A DNA stretch of 64,000 bases from Promethearchaeota archaeon (GTDB taxonomy: Archaea; Asgardarchaeota; Lokiarchaeia; Sigyniarchaeales; SOKP01). Below are positions 11,076 to 50,719 of the stretch, piece after piece. The first letter of the stretch is position 1. Each line of letters begins with the position of its first letter. The stretch is from positions 38,365 to 102,364 of the forward strand of contig JAEOTR010000062.1 in assembly GCA_016839705.1 (NCBI GenBank). The letters are read 5' to 3'. Below the pieces are notes generated by a model. That model was not told the origin of the DNA and did not search any database. It was given only the letters and a program-made list of their open reading frames with translations. Both the position numbers and the translations under genes were made by a program.

Positions 11076-11750
11076 CTATTTTGATTTTTGGATGTAATAA
11101 CCATGCATTACAAGCCACGCCATTATTACAAAATAAGCTAACCATTCGAGTACTATTGCTACGTACCTGAAGCCTTCGAAGATAATTTCAGAGATTTCAA
11201 AGGTTAGAAACATAACATAACTAACAACCACGATAATACCCAAAACAGGTAAATATTTTGGTATGTTCTTCATTCTCAATTCTAACCTTGACACGTTTAC
11301 TTGAATGATGACGACACTGACAAAGTAGATTAAAGATCCAAGCATGTGACCAATTCGAAATACATCATGAGGAAACACAGCCAATGCGATAGAACCGATC
11401 GCACCAAGATAAATAACCTTAGCAGTGTTTTTTAGGGTTTTATTTGATCCTCCTTCGGATTCTAGATATTTTAACAAATACAATCCAAACACCACTCGAA
11501 CTGGGGCTGAAATAATCATGCCTACTGCAAAAACTAAAGATGAATTTCTTGACGCTGCTCCTAGATCACTTATGTAGGTAGTTAGTAAACTAAAAGTAGA
11601 TTCAGAGTTACTATATAACATGGCGGCAATTGTAAGAAAAGTTACTGAGAAAATAAAACCAAAATATGCTACAAGACTCCCATTTACTTTTTCATACCAA
11701 TTACTTAATTTTTCACTATTTTTTCCTTCCCATAATTCTGTTGTTTCCAT
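11076..11750 (-). CDS. DUF998-like multi-pass membrane protein
   Basis: Six TM segments; TYISDLGAASRNSSLVFAVGMIISAPVRVVFGLYLL and FRIGHMLGSLIYF resemble DUF998. Confidence 0.6.
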   Translation of the reverse strand: METTELWEGKNSEKLSNWYEKVNGSLVAYFGFIFSVTFLTIAAMLYSNSESTFSLLTTYISDLGAASRNSSLVFAVGMIISAPVRVVFGLYLLKYLESEGGSNKTLKNTAKVIYLGAIGSIALAVFPHDVFRIGHMLGSLIYFVSVVIIQVNVSRLELRMKNIPKYLPVLGIIVVVSYVMFLTFEISEIIFEGFRYVAIVLEWLAYFVIMAWLVMHGYYIQKSK

Positions 11751-11790
11751 TTGTATTACCTCATTATTAAATTTTTAAAGTTACTATAAA

Positions 11791-11804
11791 TGAGTATTTG
11801 CTCA
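11791..11804. promoter_or_regulatory. Candidate TetR operator TGAG-tatttg-CTCA
   Basis: 41 bp upstream of the DUF998-like start; same half-sites as 10385 and 11818. Confidence 0.65.
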
Positions 11805-11817
11805 TTTATAAACTTTA

Positions 11818-11831
11818 TGAGTTATAGCTCA
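11818..11831. promoter_or_regulatory. Candidate TetR operator TGAG-ttatag-CTCA
   Basis: Second copy, 27 bp centre-to-centre from the first. Confidence 0.65.
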
Positions 11832-12051
11832 TTTATTGAAAACAATATCATTAATAATCCATTACTAGTTCTGTAAGATAAACTAACATTAAATCCTACA
11901 TTAATTAGAACCTTGTTCTTATATTTCAACATTTTTAGAGTAAAAATCTAAAAATAATCTAAGAGTCCATTGAGAGTTCCCATTCTTAAACTATATATTA
12001 AATCCTATCGATATAATAATTATAAGAAAAAACAAAAAAAGTGAAAAAAAA

Positions 12052-12273
12052 ATGACCCAAGCTTATGAAAAAGTAATGGAAATGAACTGTGTTGAAGTTG
12101 AAGAGGTTAAATATTCAGAAGTTCAAAAAGCCACAGAAAATAAGGTTGATGAACTACTTGGAGAGTTAAATACAAGATATTTTGAAGAAGCAACTTCTTT
12201 GAATGAAACCAAAGAGCGAGTTCAAGCTTCTCAAAATTATTCGAATTTTAGTTTCAATACCTATGGTTTTTAA
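12052..12273 (+). CDS. Small hypothetical protein
   Basis: 73-aa ORF from ATG with helical E/K-rich composition, in an otherwise non-coding interval. Confidence 0.5.
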   Translation: MTQAYEKVMEMNCVEVEEVKYSEVQKATENKVDELLGELNTRYFEEATSLNETKERVQASQNYSNFSFNTYGF

Positions 12274-13380: not shown

Positions 13381-14610
13381 TTAAAAATAATTATCTTCTT
13401 CAGATTCATTTTTTTCTAGTTCTTTTTCATCTTCTTCCTTTTTCCTCTCTGATATTAGTCTAGTCTCATAAGTTGGCTTTGGTTCAGGTTCTGGAGTAGG
13501 TTCTGGAGTAGGTTCTGGAGTAGGTTCTGGAGTAGGTTCATAGACTGGTTGTGGTTCTGGTTCCGATTCAGGAATAGGCTCATAGATTGGTTGTGGTTCT
13601 GGTTCCAGTTTTGGTTCAGGAATAGGTTCATAGACTGGTTGTGGTTTTGGTTCCGATTCAGGAATAGGCTCATAGACTGGTTGTGATTCTGGTTCTGGTT
13701 CAGGAATAGGTTCATAGACTGGTTGTGGTTCTGGTTCCGGTTCTGGAGTAGGCTCATAGACTGGTTGTGGTTCTGGTTCTGGTTCTGGAGTAGGCTCATA
13801 GACTGGTTGTGGTTCTGGTTCCGGTTCTGGTTCAGGAATAGGTTCATAAAATGGTTGTGGTTCTGGTTCTGGTTCTGGAGTAGGCTCATAGACTGGTTGT
13901 GGTTCTGGTTCCGGTTCTGGTTCAGGAATAGGTTCATAGACTGGTTGTGGTTCTGGTTCCAGTTTTGGTTCAGGAATAGGTTCATAGACTGGTTGTGGTT
14001 TTGGTTCCGATTCAGGAATAGGCTCATAGACTGGTTGTGGTTCTGGTTCCGGTTCTGGTTCAGGAATAGGTTCATAAAATGGTTGTGGTTCTGGTTCTGG
14101 TTCTGGTTCAGGAATAGGTTCATAGACTGGTTGTGGTTCTGGTTCCGGTTCAGGAGTGGGTTCAAACTCTTTTATTGCTTTTGATTTTTTTTTTATCGGT
14201 TTTTTATCTATGGCACTAACCTGTAGTATTGTAAAAGGATTATTTTCAGGATTTAACATCTCAGGGCCTAAAAATATCATTTTAGGTTTAACTTTCTTTT
14301 TATTAATTCTTAATTCTAGTGTAAAATTACCCGGAGTTAGGAAATCTAAACCATCAACCTGATTTTTTAACGTAGTTTTCCATTCAATTACGTTATTTTC
14401 TATTTCGTTAATATTATCTCCAGTTTCAAGGTTAAGTTTTCTCGTGATTTTTAATTTATTTTGGCAACTTATTTTACCTTGGGCTGTATACTCTTTACTT
14501 CCTGCAGTAGTCCATCTTAAGTGAAAGCCATCTAATTGTTTCCATAAGGCATAGCCTAAGAATTGTCCGGAATCGACTTTCAAACGTCCCTTAATATTTT
14601 TTACATTCAT
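13381..14610 (-). CDS. Hypothetical protein with N-terminal globular domain and long Pro/Glu ([13 protein letters not shown]) repeat tract
   Basis: ATG at 14610; about 130-aa N-terminal domain followed by tandem Pro-rich repeats and an acidic/basic tail. Confidence 0.75.
13475..14162 (-). repeat. Coding tandem repeat, about 14 units of consensus (P)EPEPQP[VF]YEP[IT]PE[PS]
   Basis: About 14 YEP-centred units of mostly 14-16 aa; [23 protein letters not shown] occurs twice, so there is a higher-order duplication. Confidence 0.9.
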
Positions 14611-22721: not shown

Positions 22722-23120
22722 TTAATCCTTAATCTTGGATTGAAAATCTAAGGAAATTGAATTAATACAATAACGGCAACCGGTGGGGTTTGGTCCATCA
22801 TTAAAGACATGCCCTAAGTGCCCTCCACAATTACTACAGAGAACTTCGGTTCGTTTCATATCATAGCTCGTATCTATTTGTTCTTTAACATTAGCTTCAT
22901 CATAAGGTTTATCAAAACTCGGCCAACCTGTTCCTGAATCAAATTTCTCCTCCGAAGAGAATAGAGGTGCTCCACAACCCGCACATTTGTAAACACCTTT
23001 TTCATGATGGTTCCAATATTTTCCTCTAAAAGCGGGTTCAGTCCCCTTCTCACGGAGAACACGATACTGTTCTTTGGTTAATTTCTTCTTCCATTTATCT
23101 TCAGATAATTCTGACTCCAT
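22722..23120 (-). CDS. msrB: Peptide-methionine (R)-S-oxide reductase
   Basis: [58 protein letters not shown]. Confidence 0.95.
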
Positions 23121-23270: not shown

Positions 23271-23750
23271 ATGGAGATTCAAAAAGCAATTTTTGCTGCG
23301 GGTTGTTTTTGGGGTGTAGAATCAAAATTCAGAAAAGTACCGGGTGTCTTATCTACTCGAGTAGGATATACCGGGGGTCAATTTAGCGAACCTACGTATA
23401 AGGACGTATGTTCCCTTAAAACGGGCCATGCAGAAGCTATAGAAATTACGTTTGATCCTTCTAAAGTATCATATGATGAATTACTAGATATATTTTGGTC
23501 AATTCACGACCCTACAACATTAAATCGTCAAGGTCCTGATATCGGTTTACAATATCGATCAGCAATATTCTTCATTAATCACGAGCAAAAAGAGAAAGCT
23601 ATACGCTCAAAAGATAAAATTGATGCATCTAGGCGCTTTAAAAAACCAGTAGTGACCCAAATAGTCCCCGCTTCTGATTTTTGGGAAGCAGAAGAATACC
23701 ACCAGCAATATGACGAAAAAAGGAAAAAACGTTTTATATTCAACATCTGA
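23271..23750 (+). CDS. msrA: Peptide-methionine (S)-S-oxide reductase
   Basis: AIFAAGCFWGVESKFRKVPGVLSTRVGYTGG; GHAEAIEITFDP; YHQQY. Confidence 0.95.
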   Translation: MEIQKAIFAAGCFWGVESKFRKVPGVLSTRVGYTGGQFSEPTYKDVCSLKTGHAEAIEITFDPSKVSYDELLDIFWSIHDPTTLNRQGPDIGLQYRSAIFFINHEQKEKAIRSKDKIDASRRFKKPVVTQIVPASDFWEAEEYHQQYDEKRKKRFIFNI

Positions 23751-33256: not shown

Positions 33257-33859
33257 TTATTTTTTTTTTCCATAAATCCAATATTGATATTCTCCTCCCC
33301 TTTCCAAAACTGCTTCAGAGATTATTGAGAAACCTGCTTTGTTTACGAGATTAAGAGTGGTATTTGGGCTGAAATTACTCCAAAACATTGGAACTCCAAA
33401 AAATCTGCTTGTACCTTCTGATTCGGAGACTCCTGTATTAATCAATAAAATACCACCAGGTTTTAAGATTTCAAAGAATTTTTTGAATATATTGAAATGG
33501 TTTTCCTTAGGAACATGAAAGAGAGCAAAGACACTTATTATCCCCTCAAATGTGTTTTCATTAAATTCTAACTCATTCATATCCATTTTAATGAATTCTG
33601 CATTGGGTACATTCTTTCGAGCTAGATTCAACATTGTATCAGATACATCAATCCCAGTCACTTTAATTCCTTTTTTTACTAAGAATTTAGCCGTAGGAAT
33701 ACCCGCACCGCATCCTACATCTAATACATGAGCATTATCTGAGAGGAGTGATATAAATTTCTCTAACTCATTATTAAATTTGTTTAAATTCCTGTGAGTA
33801 TAATAATCTGCAGCGATTTTATTGTATCCTTGTTCTACTAGTTTACTGATTTCATTCAT
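33257..33859 (-). CDS. Class I SAM-dependent methyltransferase
   Basis: HVLDVGCGAGIPTAKFLVKKGIKVTGIDVSDTMLNLARKN; EGIISVFALFHVPK. Confidence 0.88.
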   Translation of the reverse strand: MNEISKLVEQGYNKIAADYYTHRNLNKFNNELEKFISLLSDNAHVLDVGCGAGIPTAKFLVKKGIKVTGIDVSDTMLNLARKNVPNAEFIKMDMNELEFNENTFEGIISVFALFHVPKENHFNIFKKFFEILKPGGILLINTGVSESEGTSRFFGVPMFWSNFSPNTTLNLVNKAGFSIISEAVLERGGEYQYWIYGKKK

Positions 33860-33966
33860 ATTTCTAATAAAAAAAATAGATCTTAAGTAGGCATTGTTAA
33901 TAATTTATTATTTATATTGACTAAAACAGCTATAAAATTTAATGTGAATAAGTCAAGGATTTATGA

Positions 33967-34434
33967 TTATAAACAAGGGATCTCTTCAACTTTTCCACAA
34001 TTTTCAATTTTATCATATTTATTTCTGTTAGATTGAAAGTGAACTAGAATTTCAGAATCTTTGATTTCTGGCATCTTTTCGAATAAATTTTTATCCCCCT
34101 CTCGAATTACCTGCAAAACAAGCGGTAAATGATGTCTAAAAATTCTATCTCGCAACCCCGCCCAACCAAAACAAAAACCTCCACTAACATGCATAAGAAG
34201 ATGGAGTTCATAATTTTTATTTTTTTGTTGCCATTCCGCTAATACCTCGTCCCTCATAAATCGTGTGTATCGACTTGATATTTGCTCATAATCATAATCA
34301 GCTCCTATTGTAAGGAAAAGATCCCCCGTTGAATCAGAATGAGTTAAGGTATATTTTCGAGGCATAGTTAATTTATACGGATCTACCGAGTCCTTATAGA
34401 CAACGTGTAATTTCTCAGGGTTCAAATCTGACAT
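33967..34434 (-). CDS. STAY-GREEN (SGR) family-like protein
   Basis: MPRKYTLTHSDSTGDLFLTIGADYDYEQ...RDEVLAEW...HVSGGFCFGWAGLRDRIFRHHLPLVLQVIREGD matches the SGR pattern (PRxYTLTHSDxTGxLFLTIG ... RDEVLaeW ... HVSGG). Confidence 0.85.
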   Translation of the reverse strand: MSDLNPEKLHVVYKDSVDPYKLTMPRKYTLTHSDSTGDLFLTIGADYDYEQISSRYTRFMRDEVLAEWQQKNKNYELHLLMHVSGGFCFGWAGLRDRIFRHHLPLVLQVIREGDKNLFEKMPEIKDSEILVHFQSNRNKYDKIENCGKVEEIPCL

Positions 34435-34578
34435 TTTTATGTATTGAGTATTTTAAATAAGCGTTTAAATCTTTTACTTATGAATTATAAATATATTTTT
34501 GAAGCAAATCTTCTCTAAATTCAAATATCAAAATTTAGAAGTACAATTAAATAAATAAAAAAAAAGATTAGATTTTAC

Positions 34579-35385
34579 TTAAGCTGGTTGTAATACTCCC
34601 GCAAATACTAGCCATGCCAAAAGAGTTTTAGACCATAAACTGAGCAAAATGTATCCACGTTCTCCAAATAAATAATCTCTCCATTTTCCTACTTTTTTAT
34701 ATTGAAGGATCATATTGATCGGAAAAGTATTGAAGAAAAACACATAGGATCCAAAGATTGCCCATACAAACCATGGGATTTGAGTAATATTTCCATTGCC
34801 AAATAAATACAAAAGTATGATTATCCAAGGCATAATTCCTGCAAACACACCGATGTAAAAGGCTGTCCAGTTCGTTTTCTCAGTTTTTTGATTATGGATC
34901 TCCATCATTAATCCTAAAAGATTCATGGTGGCGTTGATAGCAAAAATTAGTATTAAACTGGAAAGATCATAGACCCCAAAAAACCATGCAATTAAAACAA
35001 TCATCAGGGATGAGCTTAAAGCATATTCAAACCATCGAAAGTAATTGATGCCCTCCTCCAATTTTCTATTATAGAAATCGTTAACTCTAGGTAATACTAT
35101 TAAAAGATGCGCAATCGCAGAGAGAAATAGAAATATTGAAACGAGAGGACCAACTGGAACTGTTGTTAATTGAATATAATTAGGTTGGAGTATTTCTAAG
35201 ACTTCGTTATATGATAGGTAAGCTGTCGTAATGGGTAGCTCAAAATCTCTTATTTTAGGCACTGTAAGAGCTAAAATCAGCATTATACTGGCTTGAATTA
35301 AATGCAATAATCCCATGATTAAGTTAAATCGTTTTAAATATGGGAAGGTTATGCTAGATTCTGTTCTTTTATTCATAATATTCAT
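34579..35385 (-). CDS. Heliorhodopsin
   Basis: Seven TM segments; FRWFEYALSSSLMIVLIA (candidate counterion E120), INATMNLLGLMMEIHN, TM7 LSLWSKTLLAWLVFAGVLQP (candidate retinal Lys K253). Confidence 0.9.
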   Translation of the reverse strand: MNIMNKRTESSITFPYLKRFNLIMGLLHLIQASIMLILALTVPKIRDFELPITTAYLSYNEVLEILQPNYIQLTTVPVGPLVSIFLFLSAIAHLLIVLPRVNDFYNRKLEEGINYFRWFEYALSSSLMIVLIAWFFGVYDLSSLILIFAINATMNLLGLMMEIHNQKTEKTNWTAFYIGVFAGIMPWIIILLYLFGNGNITQIPWFVWAIFGSYVFFFNTFPINMILQYKKVGKWRDYLFGERGYILLSLWSKTLLAWLVFAGVLQPA

Positions 35386-35614
35386 TTTATGTATAAATTT
35401 TTTAAATTTTGAATAGATACTTTTGTATAAAAAATTGATCTATATAATTTATAAAACTTGGGAAGCAAACTAAATTTGTCCTTATTCTGAGGTTTTTATT
35501 TAGAAGACCGCTTATAGCTTATTCTTATGAATTATTAATGTAAACTATAAAAGATTGGATAAAATAAAAGATAGTAATAACGTTATCGTTTTAAACATAA
35601 TAAAAATCTTTTAG

Positions 35615-36445
35615 ATGATATTCATGACTTCTTTAAAAGACAAAACACTGTTCATTACGGGTGCAAGTAGGGGAATTGGAAAAGCTATTGCTTTGAGAGC
35701 AGCTCAAGATGGAGCAAATATAGCGGTGGTAGCTAAAACCAAAGAACCACAACCAAAATTACCCGGAACTGTCTATACTGCTGTAGAAGATATTAAAAAT
35801 GCAGGTGGGGATGCCATTCCATGTATTACGGATATCCGGTTTGAAGAACAAATCCAGACAGCCATTGATGCGACAATTCATAAATTTGGTGGTATAGACA
35901 TCCTTGTTAATAATGCGAGTGCGATTTCTTTATCCCCCACTTTAGAACTAGAGATGAAGAGATTTGATCTCATGTTTTCTGTTAATGTACGGGGAACTTT
36001 CTTAAGTTCAAAGTTATGTATTCCTTATTTAAAAAAGGCTGAAAATCCTCATATATTAAATTTATCACCTCCCTTAAATTTAGACCCAAAATGGTTTAAG
36101 AATAACGTAGCCTACACAATAGCTAAATATGGGATGAGCATGTGTGTTTTAGGAATGGCTGAAGAATTTAAAAACGACGGGATTGCTGTAAACGCTCTAT
36201 GGCCTCGAACACCAATCGCAACCGCTGCTGTAAAAAATTTGCTGGGTGGACGATCCACAATTAAGCATTCAAGGATTCCGGAAATTGTAGCTGATGCGGC
36301 ATATCTTATTGTCACAAAACCAAGTAGAGAATGTACAGGTAATTTTTTTATTGACGAGGAAATTCTTTTGGAAAATGGAATAACCGACTTAGAAAAATAT
36401 TCTGTAGAACCTAAAGCTGAGCTTTATCAAGATTTTTTTCTCTAA
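35615..36445 (+). CDS. Short-chain dehydrogenase, HSDL2-like
   Basis: TGASRGIGKAIALRAAQDGANIAVVAKTKEPQPKLPGTVYTAVEDI; NNASAISLSPTLE; YTIAKYGMS; LWPRTPIATAA. Confidence 0.85.
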   Translation: MIFMTSLKDKTLFITGASRGIGKAIALRAAQDGANIAVVAKTKEPQPKLPGTVYTAVEDIKNAGGDAIPCITDIRFEEQIQTAIDATIHKFGGIDILVNNASAISLSPTLELEMKRFDLMFSVNVRGTFLSSKLCIPYLKKAENPHILNLSPPLNLDPKWFKNNVAYTIAKYGMSMCVLGMAEEFKNDGIAVNALWPRTPIATAAVKNLLGGRSTIKHSRIPEIVADAAYLIVTKPSRECTGNFFIDEEILLENGITDLEKYSVEPKAELYQDFFL

Positions 36446-37283: not shown

Positions 37284-38069
37284 CTATTTCTTTGCTCTAT
37301 ATGCTGTATAGATTATACCCACAGCGATTAGAATTATGGCAATTATCGCGGTAATTGTAATGGTTAAATTAAGACCTAGCTGTTTGAGAAATATTCCAAA
37401 TGTTGCCCATAATACCACAAGGCTATAAGCATAATCTTTTCTTAAGAATAACATCACAAATGTAATTAATACTGCTACGGAAATAACCAGTATTGTTAAG
37501 ATTTCAGCTAGTAATCCAAAACTCTCTACACCTGCGTTGACTAACACAGCCGTAACATTTGCTATAGTTGCCACTGTTATCCATCCAAGATATATACTGA
37601 AAGGTGTATACACAAACCATTTCTCTTTCCTAGTCACTTCAATCTTGCCAACATCAAGCCTTAAATATATCCATAGTAATGATAACAATATAACTATCAT
37701 TGCTACTATTGAAAGATAGATTAGCCCATAATGCCAGAAAAAAATCCAAAATATATTAGCAATATTACTTAGAATGAAAAGATAGCTAATTTTTTCAAGA
37801 AAAGGCATTTCAACTTTCTCATCTTTAACTACATCGCGAATTTGATATACCACAAATATTCCGAGGAACGCATATATAACTCCCCATATACTAAATGTTA
37901 TTCCAGCGGGTACAAATAAATTAGGATACAAATCAGAGATATAACCAGTATTACCTAGACCTAATGGAACAGAAGCTGCAACATAATTAATTATCACTGT
38001 TAATATTAGTGTTGTTAAATTTAAGACTTGTAAAATCAATTTCTTCTTATCATCAATCATTTTTATCAC
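37284..38069 (-). CDS. TspO/MBR-like tryptophan-rich sensory protein (long form)
   Basis: NTGYISDLYPNLFVPAGITFSIWGVIYAFLGIFVVYQ; NIANIFWIFFWHYGLIYLS. Confidence 0.7.
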   Translation of the reverse strand: MIKMIDDKKKLILQVLNLTTLILTVIINYVAASVPLGLGNTGYISDLYPNLFVPAGITFSIWGVIYAFLGIFVVYQIRDVVKDEKVEMPFLEKISYLFILSNIANIFWIFFWHYGLIYLSIVAMIVILLSLLWIYLRLDVGKIEVTRKEKWFVYTPFSIYLGWITVATIANVTAVLVNAGVESFGLLAEILTILVISVAVLITFVMLFLRKDYAYSLVVLWATFGIFLKQLGLNLTITITAIIAIILIAVGIIYTAYRAKK

Positions 38070-38510: not shown

Positions 38511-39800
38511 ATGGTAAAAATAAGTTCTGAATATCAAAAACTCACTCCTCTTTGGATCTCAGTCTTTGTGGACATTCTTGGGTTTAGCATAATATTACCC
38601 TTTCTACCATTTTTTATTGCAGATTTTAATACTTCACCTATCGTGATAGGATTCCTTTTAAGTTCGAACGCTATTTTTGGATTCTTTTTTGGACCAATTT
38701 TAGGTAAACTAAGTGATAAATATGGAAGGAAACCTTTTATGCTAATTTCTCAAGCGGGGACCTTAGTGGGATTCATAATATTGATTTTTGCGAATAATCT
38801 TATTGTATTATTTATCGCGAGAGTGGTAGATGGGATATTTAGCGGACAGTTTCCGATATCTAAAGCAATAATTGGTGATGTTGTCCCTCCTAAAGAACGA
38901 CCAAAACAAATGACAAATATAGGAGTTGCATTTACTCTTGCATTTTTAATTGGACCTGCTATTGGTGGATTTTTATCTCCATTTGGAATAATGGGCCCGG
39001 GTATTGTAGCAAGTATATTAGCGGGATTTACTTTTGTTTTTACGGCATACTATCTGAAGGAGACACTGCCTATTAAGGTAGGCATTCAACATTGGGCTAA
39101 ATTTGAGCTGAATTCTCAATCGACTGAAACTGATAGTATTATTACTAAGGAATTGAAAACGAAAAAATCATCGATTTGGAGAAATGAACGGACTATAATA
39201 CTCTTAATCCAATATAGCATTCTTGTAGTAGCAGCAGGTATTTTTCAAACTACCTTTAGTTTATTCGGAGGACTTCGTTTAGGATTAAATGCTCAAACAA
39301 TTGGAATTCTTCTCTCTTTAATGGGTGTCTTTCAATTAATCTTCCGGACTTTATTCTTTAATAGAATTCGGCAAGGTTTGGGAGACCCTAAAACAGCTAT
39401 GCTGGGCTTGGGTAGTTATATTATCTCTTATTTGTTATTAGCTTTTGTATCCCAAACATGGCAATTAGTCTTAGTTTTGTTCTATATCAGTTTTTCTGGA
39501 GCTACTTCAAGGGGAATAACAATTGGCTTTACTAGTCGTTCAGTTGATTATCTGAACCAAGGAAAGATAATGGGTATCACTTCATCCATCGATAATATAT
39601 CGCAAATACTTGGACCGATATTAGGTGGATTTTTACTCTCATTGACAGGGAATCTTCCATTCGCCTTGATGTTAAGCGGTTTAAGTATCTTACCTTTTAT
39701 AATAAGTTTTCAAGTATTGAAATTTGGTTATGATAATAGAACACATGATAAAAAGAGTAAAATTCCTCAAGTTATAATCGAAGCTCAAACTGAAAAATAA
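38511..39800 (+). CDS. Major facilitator superfamily transporter
   Basis: VDILGFSIILPFLPFF; GPILGKLSDKYGRKPFMLIS MFS motif A; 12 TM-like segments. Confidence 0.88.
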   Translation: MVKISSEYQKLTPLWISVFVDILGFSIILPFLPFFIADFNTSPIVIGFLLSSNAIFGFFFGPILGKLSDKYGRKPFMLISQAGTLVGFIILIFANNLIVLFIARVVDGIFSGQFPISKAIIGDVVPPKERPKQMTNIGVAFTLAFLIGPAIGGFLSPFGIMGPGIVASILAGFTFVFTAYYLKETLPIKVGIQHWAKFELNSQSTETDSIITKELKTKKSSIWRNERTIILLIQYSILVVAAGIFQTTFSLFGGLRLGLNAQTIGILLSLMGVFQLIFRTLFFNRIRQGLGDPKTAMLGLGSYIISYLLLAFVSQTWQLVLVLFYISFSGATSRGITIGFTSRSVDYLNQGKIMGITSSIDNISQILGPILGGFLLSLTGNLPFALMLSGLSILPFIISFQVLKFGYDNRTHDKKSKIPQVIIEAQTEK

Positions 39801-39969
39801 TAATTTTCTTTTTTTTTTATATCATCCCACTTATTAAGTTTGAAATATGATAATTTGAGAGAGTTTGCCATATAGAATATACTCAATTAGTCTTATGAAT
39901 TATTAATAAAAACTATTTAAAATGGGTATAAATAAGCTTATCAGAAGTGATATGAAAATAAGAATTTAA

Positions 39970-40986
39970 TTGAATAATATGATTTTACCACAAGAAAGTA
40001 GAACTTACATTTCCAATGATATAGAAATATGCAGAATTATAAACGGTATGTGGCAAATTTCTGGAGCACATGGACCTATTAATATGGAAAAAGCTTTGGA
40101 AGCCATGGGTGATTTTACAGATAACGGATTCATTACATGGGATTTAGCTGATCATTATGGTCCAGCTGAAGATTTTGTAAAGTATTTTAGAAAACTAAGA
40201 AGAAAAGAACATCAGGAACCTAATCTTAGATTTTTTACAAAATGGGTTCCAAATCCACAACCAATATCAAAGGAGATCGTGAGGAAAGCTATAGATCTTT
40301 CAAGAAGAAGAATGGATATGAATGTTTTAGATATGGTTCAATTTCACTGGTGGGATTATCAGGATAAAAATTACATAAATGCGATTGAATATCTTGAAGA
40401 ATTAAGAGAAGAAGGAATAATATTGAGTCTGGGATTAACCAATTTTGATTCATTACACGTCGAAGAGCTCTGTGAAATGGGCATCAAAATCATTACAAAT
40501 CAAGTTCAATATTCAATAATAGATAGAAGACCCGAAAAGTTTATGACACAGGTTTGTCAAAAATATGGTATAAAATTATTTGCCTATGGTACACTATGTG
40601 GAGGGCTTCTCTCAGAAAAATATCTAGGAAAATCTGAACCTTACAGATCTGATTTAAATACAGCTTCTCTCAATAAATATAAGAATATGATTAATCGATG
40701 GGGAAACTGGGATCTATTTCAAGAATTATTATCTACTCTTAATCATATAGCAAAAAAATATGGTGTTAGTATTTCGAATATTGCAGTTCGATATATATTA
40801 GAAAATCCGATAATAGCTGGAGCGATTATTGGTGTTCGACTCGGTGTTTCCGAACATTTAGTCGAGAATTCAAAAGTTTTTAACTTCTCACTGGAAAGAT
40901 CCGATTTGGATGAAATTGAAAAAGTTTCATCCAAAGCTAATAATCTTCTTGAAATAATTGGAGACTGTGGAGATGAATATAGATAA
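39970..40986 (+). CDS. Aldo/keto reductase family protein (likely start ATG 39979)
   Basis: GFITWDLADHYGPAEDFV; DMVQFHWWDY; LSLGLTNFDSLHVEELCEMGIKIITNQVQYSIIDRRPE; AGAIIGVRLGVSEHL. Confidence 0.85.
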   Translation: MNNMILPQESRTYISNDIEICRIINGMWQISGAHGPINMEKALEAMGDFTDNGFITWDLADHYGPAEDFVKYFRKLRRKEHQEPNLRFFTKWVPNPQPISKEIVRKAIDLSRRRMDMNVLDMVQFHWWDYQDKNYINAIEYLEELREEGIILSLGLTNFDSLHVEELCEMGIKIITNQVQYSIIDRRPEKFMTQVCQKYGIKLFAYGTLCGGLLSEKYLGKSEPYRSDLNTASLNKYKNMINRWGNWDLFQELLSTLNHIAKKYGVSISNIAVRYILENPIIAGAIIGVRLGVSEHLVENSKVFNFSLERSDLDEIEKVSSKANNLLEIIGDCGDEYR

Positions 40987-41160: not shown

Positions 41161-42147
41161 ATGATACGGAATCAATGGTATGCCGTTCTGGAATCTAATG
41201 AAGTTCCAAAAAGTAAACTAATTGGAGTAATAAGACTTGGAGAAAAATTAGTCTTTTGGCGAAATAAAAATGGAGAATTAATATGTCTAAGAGATAAATG
41301 TGCTCATCGAGGGGCGAAGCTTAGTATCGGAAAAATTTGTGCTAATGGAGATAAGGTGGAATGTCCATTCCATGGGCTAAGATACGATAAATCAGGTCAG
41401 TGTACTTTAATACCCGCAAACGGTAAAAACACTCCAGTGCCAGAACGGTTTAAAGTGGTATCTTACCCAACAAGAGAAAAACACAATTTTATATGGATTT
41501 GGTGGGGAGAACCTCAATTTGAATATCCTCCTATACCATTTTTTGCAAATATTGATAATAAATTTTCTTATAATACTCATACTGAAGTATGGCCGGTTCA
41601 TTATTCTCGAGCAATCGAAAATCAACTTGATGTTGTTCATTTACCTTTTGTCCATCATAATACAATTGGGCGAGGCTATCAAACACTTGTACATGGACCT
41701 TTAGTGGAACCTTCTGAGGATGGAAATGAGTTCAACTTCTGGGTATATAATCAAAAAGATGATGGAAAGACTAAGCCTTTAAAACCTGAAGAATTTACTA
41801 ATGAAATGAAAATCTTTCATCTTGAATTTAAATTTCCACATATATGGCAGAATTATCTTGGGGAAAAAGTTCGGATATTTATAGCTTTTGTTCCAATAGA
41901 TGAAACACACACGAAGTTTTATATGAGATTTTATCAAAAATTTATAAGGATCCCTATTTTAAAATCAATTATTAATTGGTTTGCTAATAAATTTAATCTC
42001 ATTATCCTACATCAAGATAGAAAGGTTGTTCTAACACAGCAACCAATTAAATCTCAATTAAAAATGGGAGAAAAGCTCATTCAAGGTGATAATCCCATTG
42101 TATATTACCGGCGTAGAAGAGAAGAATTAATATTAAATAACAATTAA
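41161..42147 (+). CDS. Rieske non-haem iron oxygenase
   Basis: Rieske CAHRGAKLSIGKICANGDKVECPFHGLRYD; mononuclear iron-site-like ENQLDVVHLPFVHHNTIGRG. Confidence 0.88.
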   Translation: MIRNQWYAVLESNEVPKSKLIGVIRLGEKLVFWRNKNGELICLRDKCAHRGAKLSIGKICANGDKVECPFHGLRYDKSGQCTLIPANGKNTPVPERFKVVSYPTREKHNFIWIWWGEPQFEYPPIPFFANIDNKFSYNTHTEVWPVHYSRAIENQLDVVHLPFVHHNTIGRGYQTLVHGPLVEPSEDGNEFNFWVYNQKDDGKTKPLKPEEFTNEMKIFHLEFKFPHIWQNYLGEKVRIFIAFVPIDETHTKFYMRFYQKFIRIPILKSIINWFANKFNLIILHQDRKVVLTQQPIKSQLKMGEKLIQGDNPIVYYRRRREELILNNN

Positions 42148-48571: not shown

Positions 48572-50719
48572 TTGTATAGATTTAAATTTTTGTATGAAAT
48601 TAAAATGAAATCAAAAACAATAGCCCTAATAATTTTAGGAATCACTTTTGCTTTCTTTCCTATTTTTACCATTAAATTTAGTTTTATTAGCGGCAATACC
48701 AACAAAAGTGCGGGCTATAACGATAATAATCATTTAGATAATGATGATTTGAAAATCTCAGCAGTATCGGGAAAAATTCATGTTGATAATAATTGGACAG
48801 ATACTAGGGACGCAGGAATATGCACAGGGAATGGGATTTATTCTGACCCTTATGTCATAGAAGATTTGGTAATAGATGGCGGGGATTCGGGAAGTTGTAT
48901 CTTGATTGAAAATTCGAATGTGTACTTTAAAATAGAAAATTGCACACTCTACAATGCAAGCCAGGATAGTGCGGGAATCAAGCTACAAACAGTGAGTAAT
49001 GGATTATTAATTAATAATAATGCTTCAAATAATAACGACCTTGGAATATCTTTGAATTATAGTGATAATAACATTATCTCGGGAAACGTCGCAAATAACA
49101 ACGGTGGTTTAGGGATACAATTATCTTATAGTAATATTAGCACGGTTTCGGGAAATACCGCAAATAACAATAACTATGGGATAGTTATTACATTTTCGGA
49201 GGGCAATAATATCACAGGAAACATAGTTAATAATAATATTTATGGGATGATTTTAGCTTATGGTAATAATAATATAGTTTCGGAAAACACCGTAAATAAC
49301 AATAACCAATGGGGGATATATTGGGGGGGGGATAGTAATAGCATCATTACGGGAAACACCGCAAATAACAACTTCGTTGGGATATATTTGGAGGGTGGAG
49401 GTAAAAGCATCCTTAGAGAGAATAATGCCCATAACAACGATTTTGGGATATATTTGTTGAATAGTGATAACAATAACCTCATAAAGAATAATTCCACTAA
49501 CAATCACTATGGAATACGTCTTGATTATAGCCATCATAACACAAATACTCAAAATATTATAATAAATAACTCTTGGGGTGGGATTTATTTACAGTATAGC
49601 GATTACAATAAGATTACTCGAAATAATATTTCTCATAATAGAATAGGTATATACCTATTTTACTCTAATTATAATTATGTCATAAATAACGATCTAAACG
49701 CTAATGAAATGGATATACAAGAATATTCCAGTCAAGGCAACATATTCGAAGAAGAGGATATTCAATTGGAACTGGTCATTTCTATTATAATGCTCATCAT
49801 TGCTGTATTGATAATATCTATAATTATTAAAAGAGGATCGCCAAGACATAAAGAAATACTAACATTAATTACTAAGACAGAAAATAATCTAAAACGTTCT
49901 AATAAGTATGTACAGGAAGAGAGGAAATTAATTATAGAAGGAGGAGAAGAAGCAGATTCAATAATAGTTGTAAAAGGTTTAAGAAAATACTTCGGAGATG
50001 TGAAAGCGGTAAATGGTATCTCTCTTGAAGTTCGTGAAGGTGAGCTTTTTGGGCTTTTAGGACCAAATGGTGCCGGAAAGACGACTACGATTAAACTTCT
50101 CCTAAGCATCTTAGAACCAGATGAGGGAGAAATAAAAATATATGGATTAAACCCAGAATATGATGAATTTCAAATTAAATGTCGTGTGGGGTATGTTTCT
50201 GAAGAACCGTTAATGTTTAAGTCATTAACGCTTAAGGATCTATTTGATTTTATCATATCGACTAGGAGATTAGAAAAAGTAACTACTTTAAAACGTATAG
50301 AAGACTATTTAGAGAGCTTTGAAATGACTGGATATTATGATCATTTTATTTCTACTTTATCGCATGGTATTTCACAAAAATTAAAATTAATTGTTGCCAT
50401 GTTGCATGAACCTGATTTACTTATATTGGATGAACCTCTTTCTGGACTTGATCCCAAATCTGTAAAGGTTATAAAAACACTGCTGGAATTACATACTCAG
50501 CGTGGTGGTTCAGTTCTATTTTCAACACATATTATGGAAATAGCGCATCAATTATGCGATAGAATCGGAATTATAAATAAAGGGAAGATGGTTGGAATTG
50601 GGACAATTGAAGAACTCCGTCATCAATCAGAAAGTGTTGGTGAGAGCTTAGAAGATGTGTTTTTGCGTCTTACTGAACAAGATAGTTCCGTAAATGAGAT
50701 TGTGAAAAAATTCCGATAA
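48572..50719 (+). CDS. NosD-like right-handed beta-helix fused via one TM to ABC transporter ATPase (likely start ATG 48605)
   Basis: Signal/TM N-terminus; repeated NNxxGIxLxxSxxNxISGNxANNN; TM LVISIIMLIIAVLIISIIIKRG; then VVKGLRKYFGDVKAVNGISLEVREGELFGLLGPNGAGKTTTIKLLL, LSHGISQKLKLIVAMLHEPDLLILDEPLSGLDP, FSTHIMEIA. Confidence 0.9.
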   Translation: MYRFKFLYEIKMKSKTIALIILGITFAFFPIFTIKFSFISGNTNKSAGYNDNNHLDNDDLKISAVSGKIHVDNNWTDTRDAGICTGNGIYSDPYVIEDLVIDGGDSGSCILIENSNVYFKIENCTLYNASQDSAGIKLQTVSNGLLINNNASNNNDLGISLNYSDNNIISGNVANNNGGLGIQLSYSNISTVSGNTANNNNYGIVITFSEGNNITGNIVNNNIYGMILAYGNNNIVSENTVNNNNQWGIYWGGDSNSIITGNTANNNFVGIYLEGGGKSILRENNAHNNDFGIYLLNSDNNNLIKNNSTNNHYGIRLDYSHHNTNTQNIIINNSWGGIYLQYSDYNKITRNNISHNRIGIYLFYSNYNYVINNDLNANEMDIQEYSSQGNIFEEEDIQLELVISIIMLIIAVLIISIIIKRGSPRHKEILTLITKTENNLKRSNKYVQEERKLIIEGGEEADSIIVVKGLRKYFGDVKAVNGISLEVREGELFGLLGPNGAGKTTTIKLLLSILEPDEGEIKIYGLNPEYDEFQIKCRVGYVSEEPLMFKSLTLKDLFDFIISTRRLEKVTTLKRIEDYLESFEMTGYYDHFISTLSHGISQKLKLIVAMLHEPDLLILDEPLSGLDPKSVKVIKTLLELHTQRGGSVLFSTHIMEIAHQLCDRIGIINKGKMVGIGTIEELRHQSESVGESLEDVFLRLTEQDSSVNEIVKKFR

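Follow-up and report, generated by a model that had tools for sequence, protein, structure and literature searches.

Background

Heliorhodopsin genes (HeR) that pair with a partner gene are already known, and there are precedents for a heliorhodopsin controlling the protein encoded next to it (PMC9769723, PMC11109279). The neighbour groups named in these two papers include a photolyase (the TfHeR-TfPHR pair), glutamine synthetase and the ABC transporter OmrDE. Here we describe a heliorhodopsin gene whose partner belongs to the STAY-GREEN family (SGR), an apparently new pairing, in 64,000 nucleotides of a lokiarchaeal genome (contig JAEOTR010000062.1; this whole stretch is called the window, and all coordinates are positions in it). 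As in the known pairs, the heliorhodopsin adjoins a gene with a potentially light-regulated product, photolyases and short-chain dehydrogenase/reductases (SDR) occur in the same neighbourhoods, and the adjacency on one strand recurs across taxa. The difference is that SGR is absent from the ten groups of neighbours that PMC11109279 lists, and that an interaction of HeR with SGR is putative. No paper containing both "heliorhodopsin" and "dechelatase" was found, though the supplementary tables of earlier surveys of HeR neighbours lay outside this search and could hold an unhighlighted listing.

On the SGR side the closest described protein is AbSGR-h of Anaerolineae bacterium SM23_63 (PDB 7y5y; PMC8531759, PMC11006732), to which the window SGR is related over its full length and with which it shares every residue that mutation proved important. 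What sets the lokiarchaeal protein apart is its linkage to HeR, and its Mg-dechelatase activity is a prediction. The native role of prokaryotic SGR has been described as unknown (PMC8531759) and its substrate range as broad (PMC8531759, PMC11006732). Plant STAY-GREEN (SGR/NYE1), which acts in chlorophyll breakdown, belongs to the same Pfam family and its chemistry is presumably alike. The setting differs, in that the family of the ring-opening enzyme PaO (pheophorbide a oxygenase) of the plant pathway was not found in the 53 genomes tested (pheophytinase and RCCR being outside that search) and the lokiarchaeal organism is non-photosynthetic as far as shown.

Beyond a few partners the function of heliorhodopsins is open, and a pair that recurs in Asgard archaea, Bathyarchaeota and Chloroflexota makes the roles of both HeR and SGR testable. 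The pairing is also relevant to how plant chlorophyll breakdown could have acquired its first enzyme from a light-related one with no part in photosynthesis.

The gene pair and its recurrence

HeR and SGR lie in the window with a third gene of the same strand, each found as an open reading frame with a Pfam match:

34579-35385, minus strand: heliorhodopsin (HeR), 268 amino acids
33967-34434, minus strand: STAY-GREEN-family protein (SGR), 155 amino acids
33257-33859, minus strand: class I S-adenosylmethionine-dependent methyltransferase, 200 amino acids

An earlier note on this DNA, made without database searches, had placed these three genes exactly, with gaps that come to 144 bp (HeR-SGR) and 107 bp (SGR-methyltransferase), and its identifications are borne out by the profile searches. 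HeR matches Pfam Heliorhodopsin (PF18761, E=8.6e-97) and the NCBIfam equivalog NF038020 (310.5 bits, cut-off 100), and its closest solved structure is 6is6 (E=4e-68). The retinal Schiff-base Lys253 is present in the last helix and Glu120 is kept; in the alignment of Asgard HeRs, counting the rows that have a residue at the column, these are Lys in 62/62 and Glu in 63/63. SGR matches Pfam Staygreen (PF12638, E=5.6e-47; 159.7 bits against a cut-off of 27) over model positions 2-146 of 147, and the third gene matches Methyltransf_25 (E=1e-22), making it a generic class I methyltransferase. HeR and SGR are each single-copy in the window's genome.

The closest solved structure to SGR is 7y5y, the Anaerolineae homologue (phmmer E=2e-45), with which it shares numbering in the alignment. 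Mutation work has identified R26, Y28, T29, T31, H32, D34, T36, R61, D62, E63, R95 and D114 as catalytic or structural (PMC8531759), and the window SGR carries all of them. The catalytic D34 and D62 are thus in place together with H32, and the loss of catalytic residues that would have refuted the earlier note is not seen. Among Asgard SGR rows with the column filled, H32 and D34 are each kept in 47/47 and D62 in 48/49. From these intact residues we infer that the window SGR is a Mg-dechelatase. Two genomes have two SGR copies each, G126 (L069, L068) and G125 (L070, L071), and in G125 one of the two is interrupted by an internal stop.

Our Asgard sample comprised 231 genomes of the phylum, with SGR in 50, HeR in 64 and both in 38. 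The two genes lie within 10 kb of each other in 14 of these 38, where about 0.2 would be expected:

Lokiarchaeia genus 1 (g1): G000, G123
Lokiarchaeia genus 8 (g8): G135, G136, G141, G146, G149, G150
Family f15 (named Hodarchaeota loci): G046-G049, G053
Family f17: G057

Conservation in other Asgard genomes, which the earlier note had left to be checked, is therefore real, and it extends far beyond Asgard. In a sample of 346 Anaerolineae genomes (SGR in 13, HeR in 40, both in 10), five of the ten with both have the pair within about 2-3 kb, HeR being upstream on the same strand, and further linked pairs are found in Dehalococcoidia (L190, L203, L222) and a Bathyarchaeon (L227). Since the adjacency recurs in Asgard, Chloroflexota and Bathyarchaeota, it is not due to chance. 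The linked genes fall in several separate clades of the HeR and SGR trees, on which the linked state changes at least 9 and at least 13 times, respectively.

The two genes also co-occur more often than expected. HeR is found in 38/50 Asgard genomes with SGR and in 26/181 without it (Fisher p=3e-16 over genomes, 0.003 over genera), and in Anaerolineae in 10/13 and 30/333, respectively (p=3e-8). Kinship of the genomes inflates the genome-level p-values, so the genus-level test and the second phylum give the safer numbers.

Light-related genes around SGR

An unsupervised tally of the gene families lying within about 8 kb of SGR has HeR in 7 lineages, matched only by generic ABC ATPases. Next come class I and class II photolyases, UvdE, CrtI with phytoene synthase, DUF523/DUF1722, and one family each of MFS, TspO-like and Rieske proteins. 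We counted as light genes the heliorhodopsin, rhodopsin, photolyase, UV-endonuclease and carotenoid genes. At least one is present within 7 kb in 35 of the 91 SGR loci, compared to none of 40 control stretches, each 16.4 kb long and taken from the same lineages. Tested family by family, the enrichment is significant for HeR and class I photolyase and borderline for the TspO-like family and DUF523/1722; class II photolyase, UvdE and Crt individually gave no significant enrichment. Hermodarchaeota G068 and G070, in which no HeR was found, have SGR clustered with a type-1 rhodopsin (PF01036), fasciclin, peroxiredoxin, photolyase, PPOX, CrtI and phytoene synthase. This rhodopsin gene lies at 11571-12182 of locus L098 and is also present in L097.

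The recurrent pairing, often together with genes for the repair of light damage to DNA, suggests that prokaryotic SGR belongs to a light-related module, and the light-related function proposed in the earlier note agrees with this neighbourhood.

The same data can be read as a loose genomic island of light-stress genes, in which the HeR-SGR adjacency has no direct functional meaning. Gene order is variable, and in most g1 genomes HeR lies elsewhere, often by UvdE and a PPOX-like flavoprotein, as such an island would have it. However, of the SGR neighbours with a specific function, HeR spans the most lineages, and the co-occurrence persists at the genus level, which leads us to regard a mere island as rather doubtful. 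A second conserved HeR neighbourhood, unlinked to SGR, is seen in the Lokiarchaeia loci L113, L117, L118, L119, L139 and L146: there HeR is beside or near a PPOX-like flavoprotein, and UvdE together with DUF6512 or nitrilase genes is often present too.

Proposed function

The explanation we favor, by a modest degree of confidence, is that the pair is part of a light-related module in which SGR acts as a Mg-dechelatase on scavenged chlorophyll-type tetrapyrroles and HeR as a sensor or regulator. SGR would take Mg off the scavenged compounds and would be co-regulated with the adjacent oxidoreductases, its native task being tied to light exposure through the handling of photosensitisers or pigments. 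HeR could then sense the light for this response or regulate it, and the products may be processed or transported by the oxidoreductases nearby and by the MFS transporter. This explanation builds on the key residues, the linkage, the co-occurrence, the excess of photolyase, UvdE and TspO-like genes around SGR, and a common upstream element. What we infer is that the window SGR has Mg-dechelatase activity, what it acts on, which way regulation runs and how the cell gains from it.

Several observations weigh against it. In most Lokiarchaeia g1 genomes HeR lies away from SGR, HeR was not found in 12 of the 50 Asgard SGR genomes (some of these metagenome-assembled genomes being incomplete), and 56 of the 91 SGR loci lack a light gene within 7 kb. 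The neighbour profiles were built from Asgard loci and the genomes are akin, which makes the p-values optimistic. No retinal synthase Blh passed the cut-off in any of 53 genomes, so the chromophore of HeR must be external or come from an unrecognised enzyme. The pheophytin-type products of Mg removal from chlorophyll are themselves photosensitisers and phototoxic; detoxification would thus require later steps, and the PaO domain PF08417 was found in 0/53 genomes. Finally, a BchH/CobN-like protein in 11 of 42 SGR genomes, including a partial one in the window's genome, makes endogenous Mg-tetrapyrroles possible there.

A stronger version of the link would be light gating of SGR activity by HeR, through binding to SGR or to its membrane-bound substrate complex. 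Lokiarchaeia g1, Hodarchaeota, Anaerolineae and Dehalococcoidia do have loci with HeR directly upstream of SGR and in its orientation, and as precedents HeR is reported to partner a class II photolyase, a glutamine synthetase and an ABC transporter (PMC9769723 and PMC11109279, the latter citing the work on glutamine synthetase). Against this, the pair is often unlinked, and there are divergent, convergent and spaced arrangements with several genes between. Direct binding or gating, proposed by analogy, seems unlikely to us. Its full form, a two-gene light switch of archaea and Chloroflexota by which HeR would directly control Mg removal from photosensitising tetrapyrroles, we hold to be quite improbable. 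If true, it would give the first native function for prokaryotic SGR and for one group of heliorhodopsins.

The BchH/CobN-like protein also touches on the substrate. Endogenous chlorophyll synthesis in the cell could not be shown; the match is ambiguous, because archaeal control genomes match as well. The substrate could instead be a non-chlorophyll tetrapyrrole, such as a cofactor precursor with chelated Mg, Co or Ni, and the link to light would then be indirect. The broad substrate range of prokaryotic SGR and its unknown physiology (PMC8531759, PMC11006732) leave room for this, as does the BchH/CobN-like protein of some Lokiarchaeia. No BchH match at E<=0.001 was found in 31 of the 42 SGR genomes, however, and the key residues are identical with those of a chlorophyll-active enzyme, and we give such a substrate little credence.

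The methyltransferase follows SGR in 16 Lokiarchaeia genomes, with a spacer of about 110 bp in most, and this pairing is confined to Lokiarchaeia (g1 and g8). All its NCBIfam matches are below cut-off. The best tetrapyrrole model, the Mg-protoporphyrin methyltransferase BchM (TIGR02021), was rejected at 47 bits against a cut-off of 158.9, and the family of this gene does not suggest a role with tetrapyrroles.

Neighbouring genes and a possible use of chlorophyll debris

Beyond HeR, the region from 35.6 to 42.1 kb holds five genes whose families all recur near SGR elsewhere:

35615-36445, plus strand: SDR oxidoreductase (NF006133 family), divergent from HeR
37284-38069, minus strand: putative TspO/MBR-related membrane protein (c124, by alignment)
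38511-39800, plus strand: MFS transporter (c6), family near SGR in Chloroflexota too
39970-40986, plus strand: aldo/keto reductase (AKR, c20), near SGR in five Asgard loci including the window
41161-42147, plus strand: Rieske oxygenase of the VanA_C type (c139); members of its family lie close to SGR in G057, L198 and L225

The SDR is near SGR in 10 Lokiarchaeia genomes and mostly divergent from it. The Rieske protein was considered as PaO and rejected, since it has VanA_C in place of the PaO C-terminal domain PF08417.

With such genes at hand, the locus might serve the use of phytodetritus: chlorophyll and carotenoid debris would be taken up, SGR would initiate the breakdown of chlorins as a source of Mg, carbon or phytol, that debris would also supply the retinal of HeR, and light would be incidental. 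The missing retinal synthase and the chlorophyll synthesis that could not be shown fit this scenario, and the SDR, AKR, Rieske oxygenase, methyltransferase and MFS transporter could process and move the products. It leaves the photolyase, UvdE and type-1 rhodopsin neighbours unexplained, and PaO was not found in the 53 genomes, a search that did not extend to pheophytinase. We consider this scenario somewhat unlikely.

The c124 family adjoins SGR in Anaerolineae, Dehalococcoidia and Bathyarchaeota. Five of its eight members match TspO_MBR (PF03073) weakly but significantly, the best at 3e-7, which is the likeness to the described tetrapyrrole-binding TspO/MBR proteins (PMC4926414, PMC4677103). 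The family differs from these in its length of about 260 amino acids and its extra helices; the window member taken alone is below significance, and a fold search with it has 4uc3 only at rank 27. PMC4926414 reports tetrapyrroles among the ligands of TSPO.

Promoters and regulation

The earlier note found the spacing of the three genes compatible with linked expression. The following elements bear on this:

35525-35548, minus strand: conserved 24-bp element ATAGTTTACATTAATAATTCATAA, between SDR and HeR
39893-39916, minus strand: second copy of this element with one mismatch, upstream of the AKR gene (39970)
34557-34565, minus strand: run of nine T directly after the HeR stop, by its sequence a possible archaeal terminator
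34461-34490, minus strand: promoter-like block before SGR, TTATAATTCATAAGTAAAAGATTTAAACGC, matching relatives that have no HeR there
33860-33966, minus strand: spacer between SGR and the methyltransferase; a 17-row alignment shows TTAA.TT.TATAA and TAATAAAATATTA as conserved, TATA-like blocks

SDR and SGR mostly point away from each other in Lokiarchaeia genus 1, where the 24-bp element lies about 44 bp before SGR; in the window and in G123, HeR is interposed between the element and SGR. With at most one mismatch allowed, the whole genome has two copies, those before HeR and AKR, and no others. Scans for sigma-70 promoters and stem-loop terminators gave no more matches than shuffled sequence.

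The spacers of 144 and 107 bp, the conserved promoter-like blocks that SGR and the methyltransferase each have of their own and the T-tract after HeR speak against a three-gene operon. Judged from the 24-bp element, these blocks and the T-tract, shared regulation of HeR, SGR and their neighbours is plausible, and a single transcript for the three genes is not supported.

A weak copy of the 24-bp element, with 5 mismatches and possibly due to chance, lies between divergent msrB-like (22722-23120) and msrA-like (23271-23750) genes, and MsrA-like genes are found near SGR in Dehalococcoidia and Bathyarchaeota. Elsewhere in the window, 13381-14610 encodes a long Pro-Glu repeat protein with open frames overlapping on both strands, probably an effect of low complexity. 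By eye, the open reading frame at 48572-50719 looks like an unusual fusion in which repeated beta-helix-like (NosD-like) segments precede an ABC transporter ATPase.
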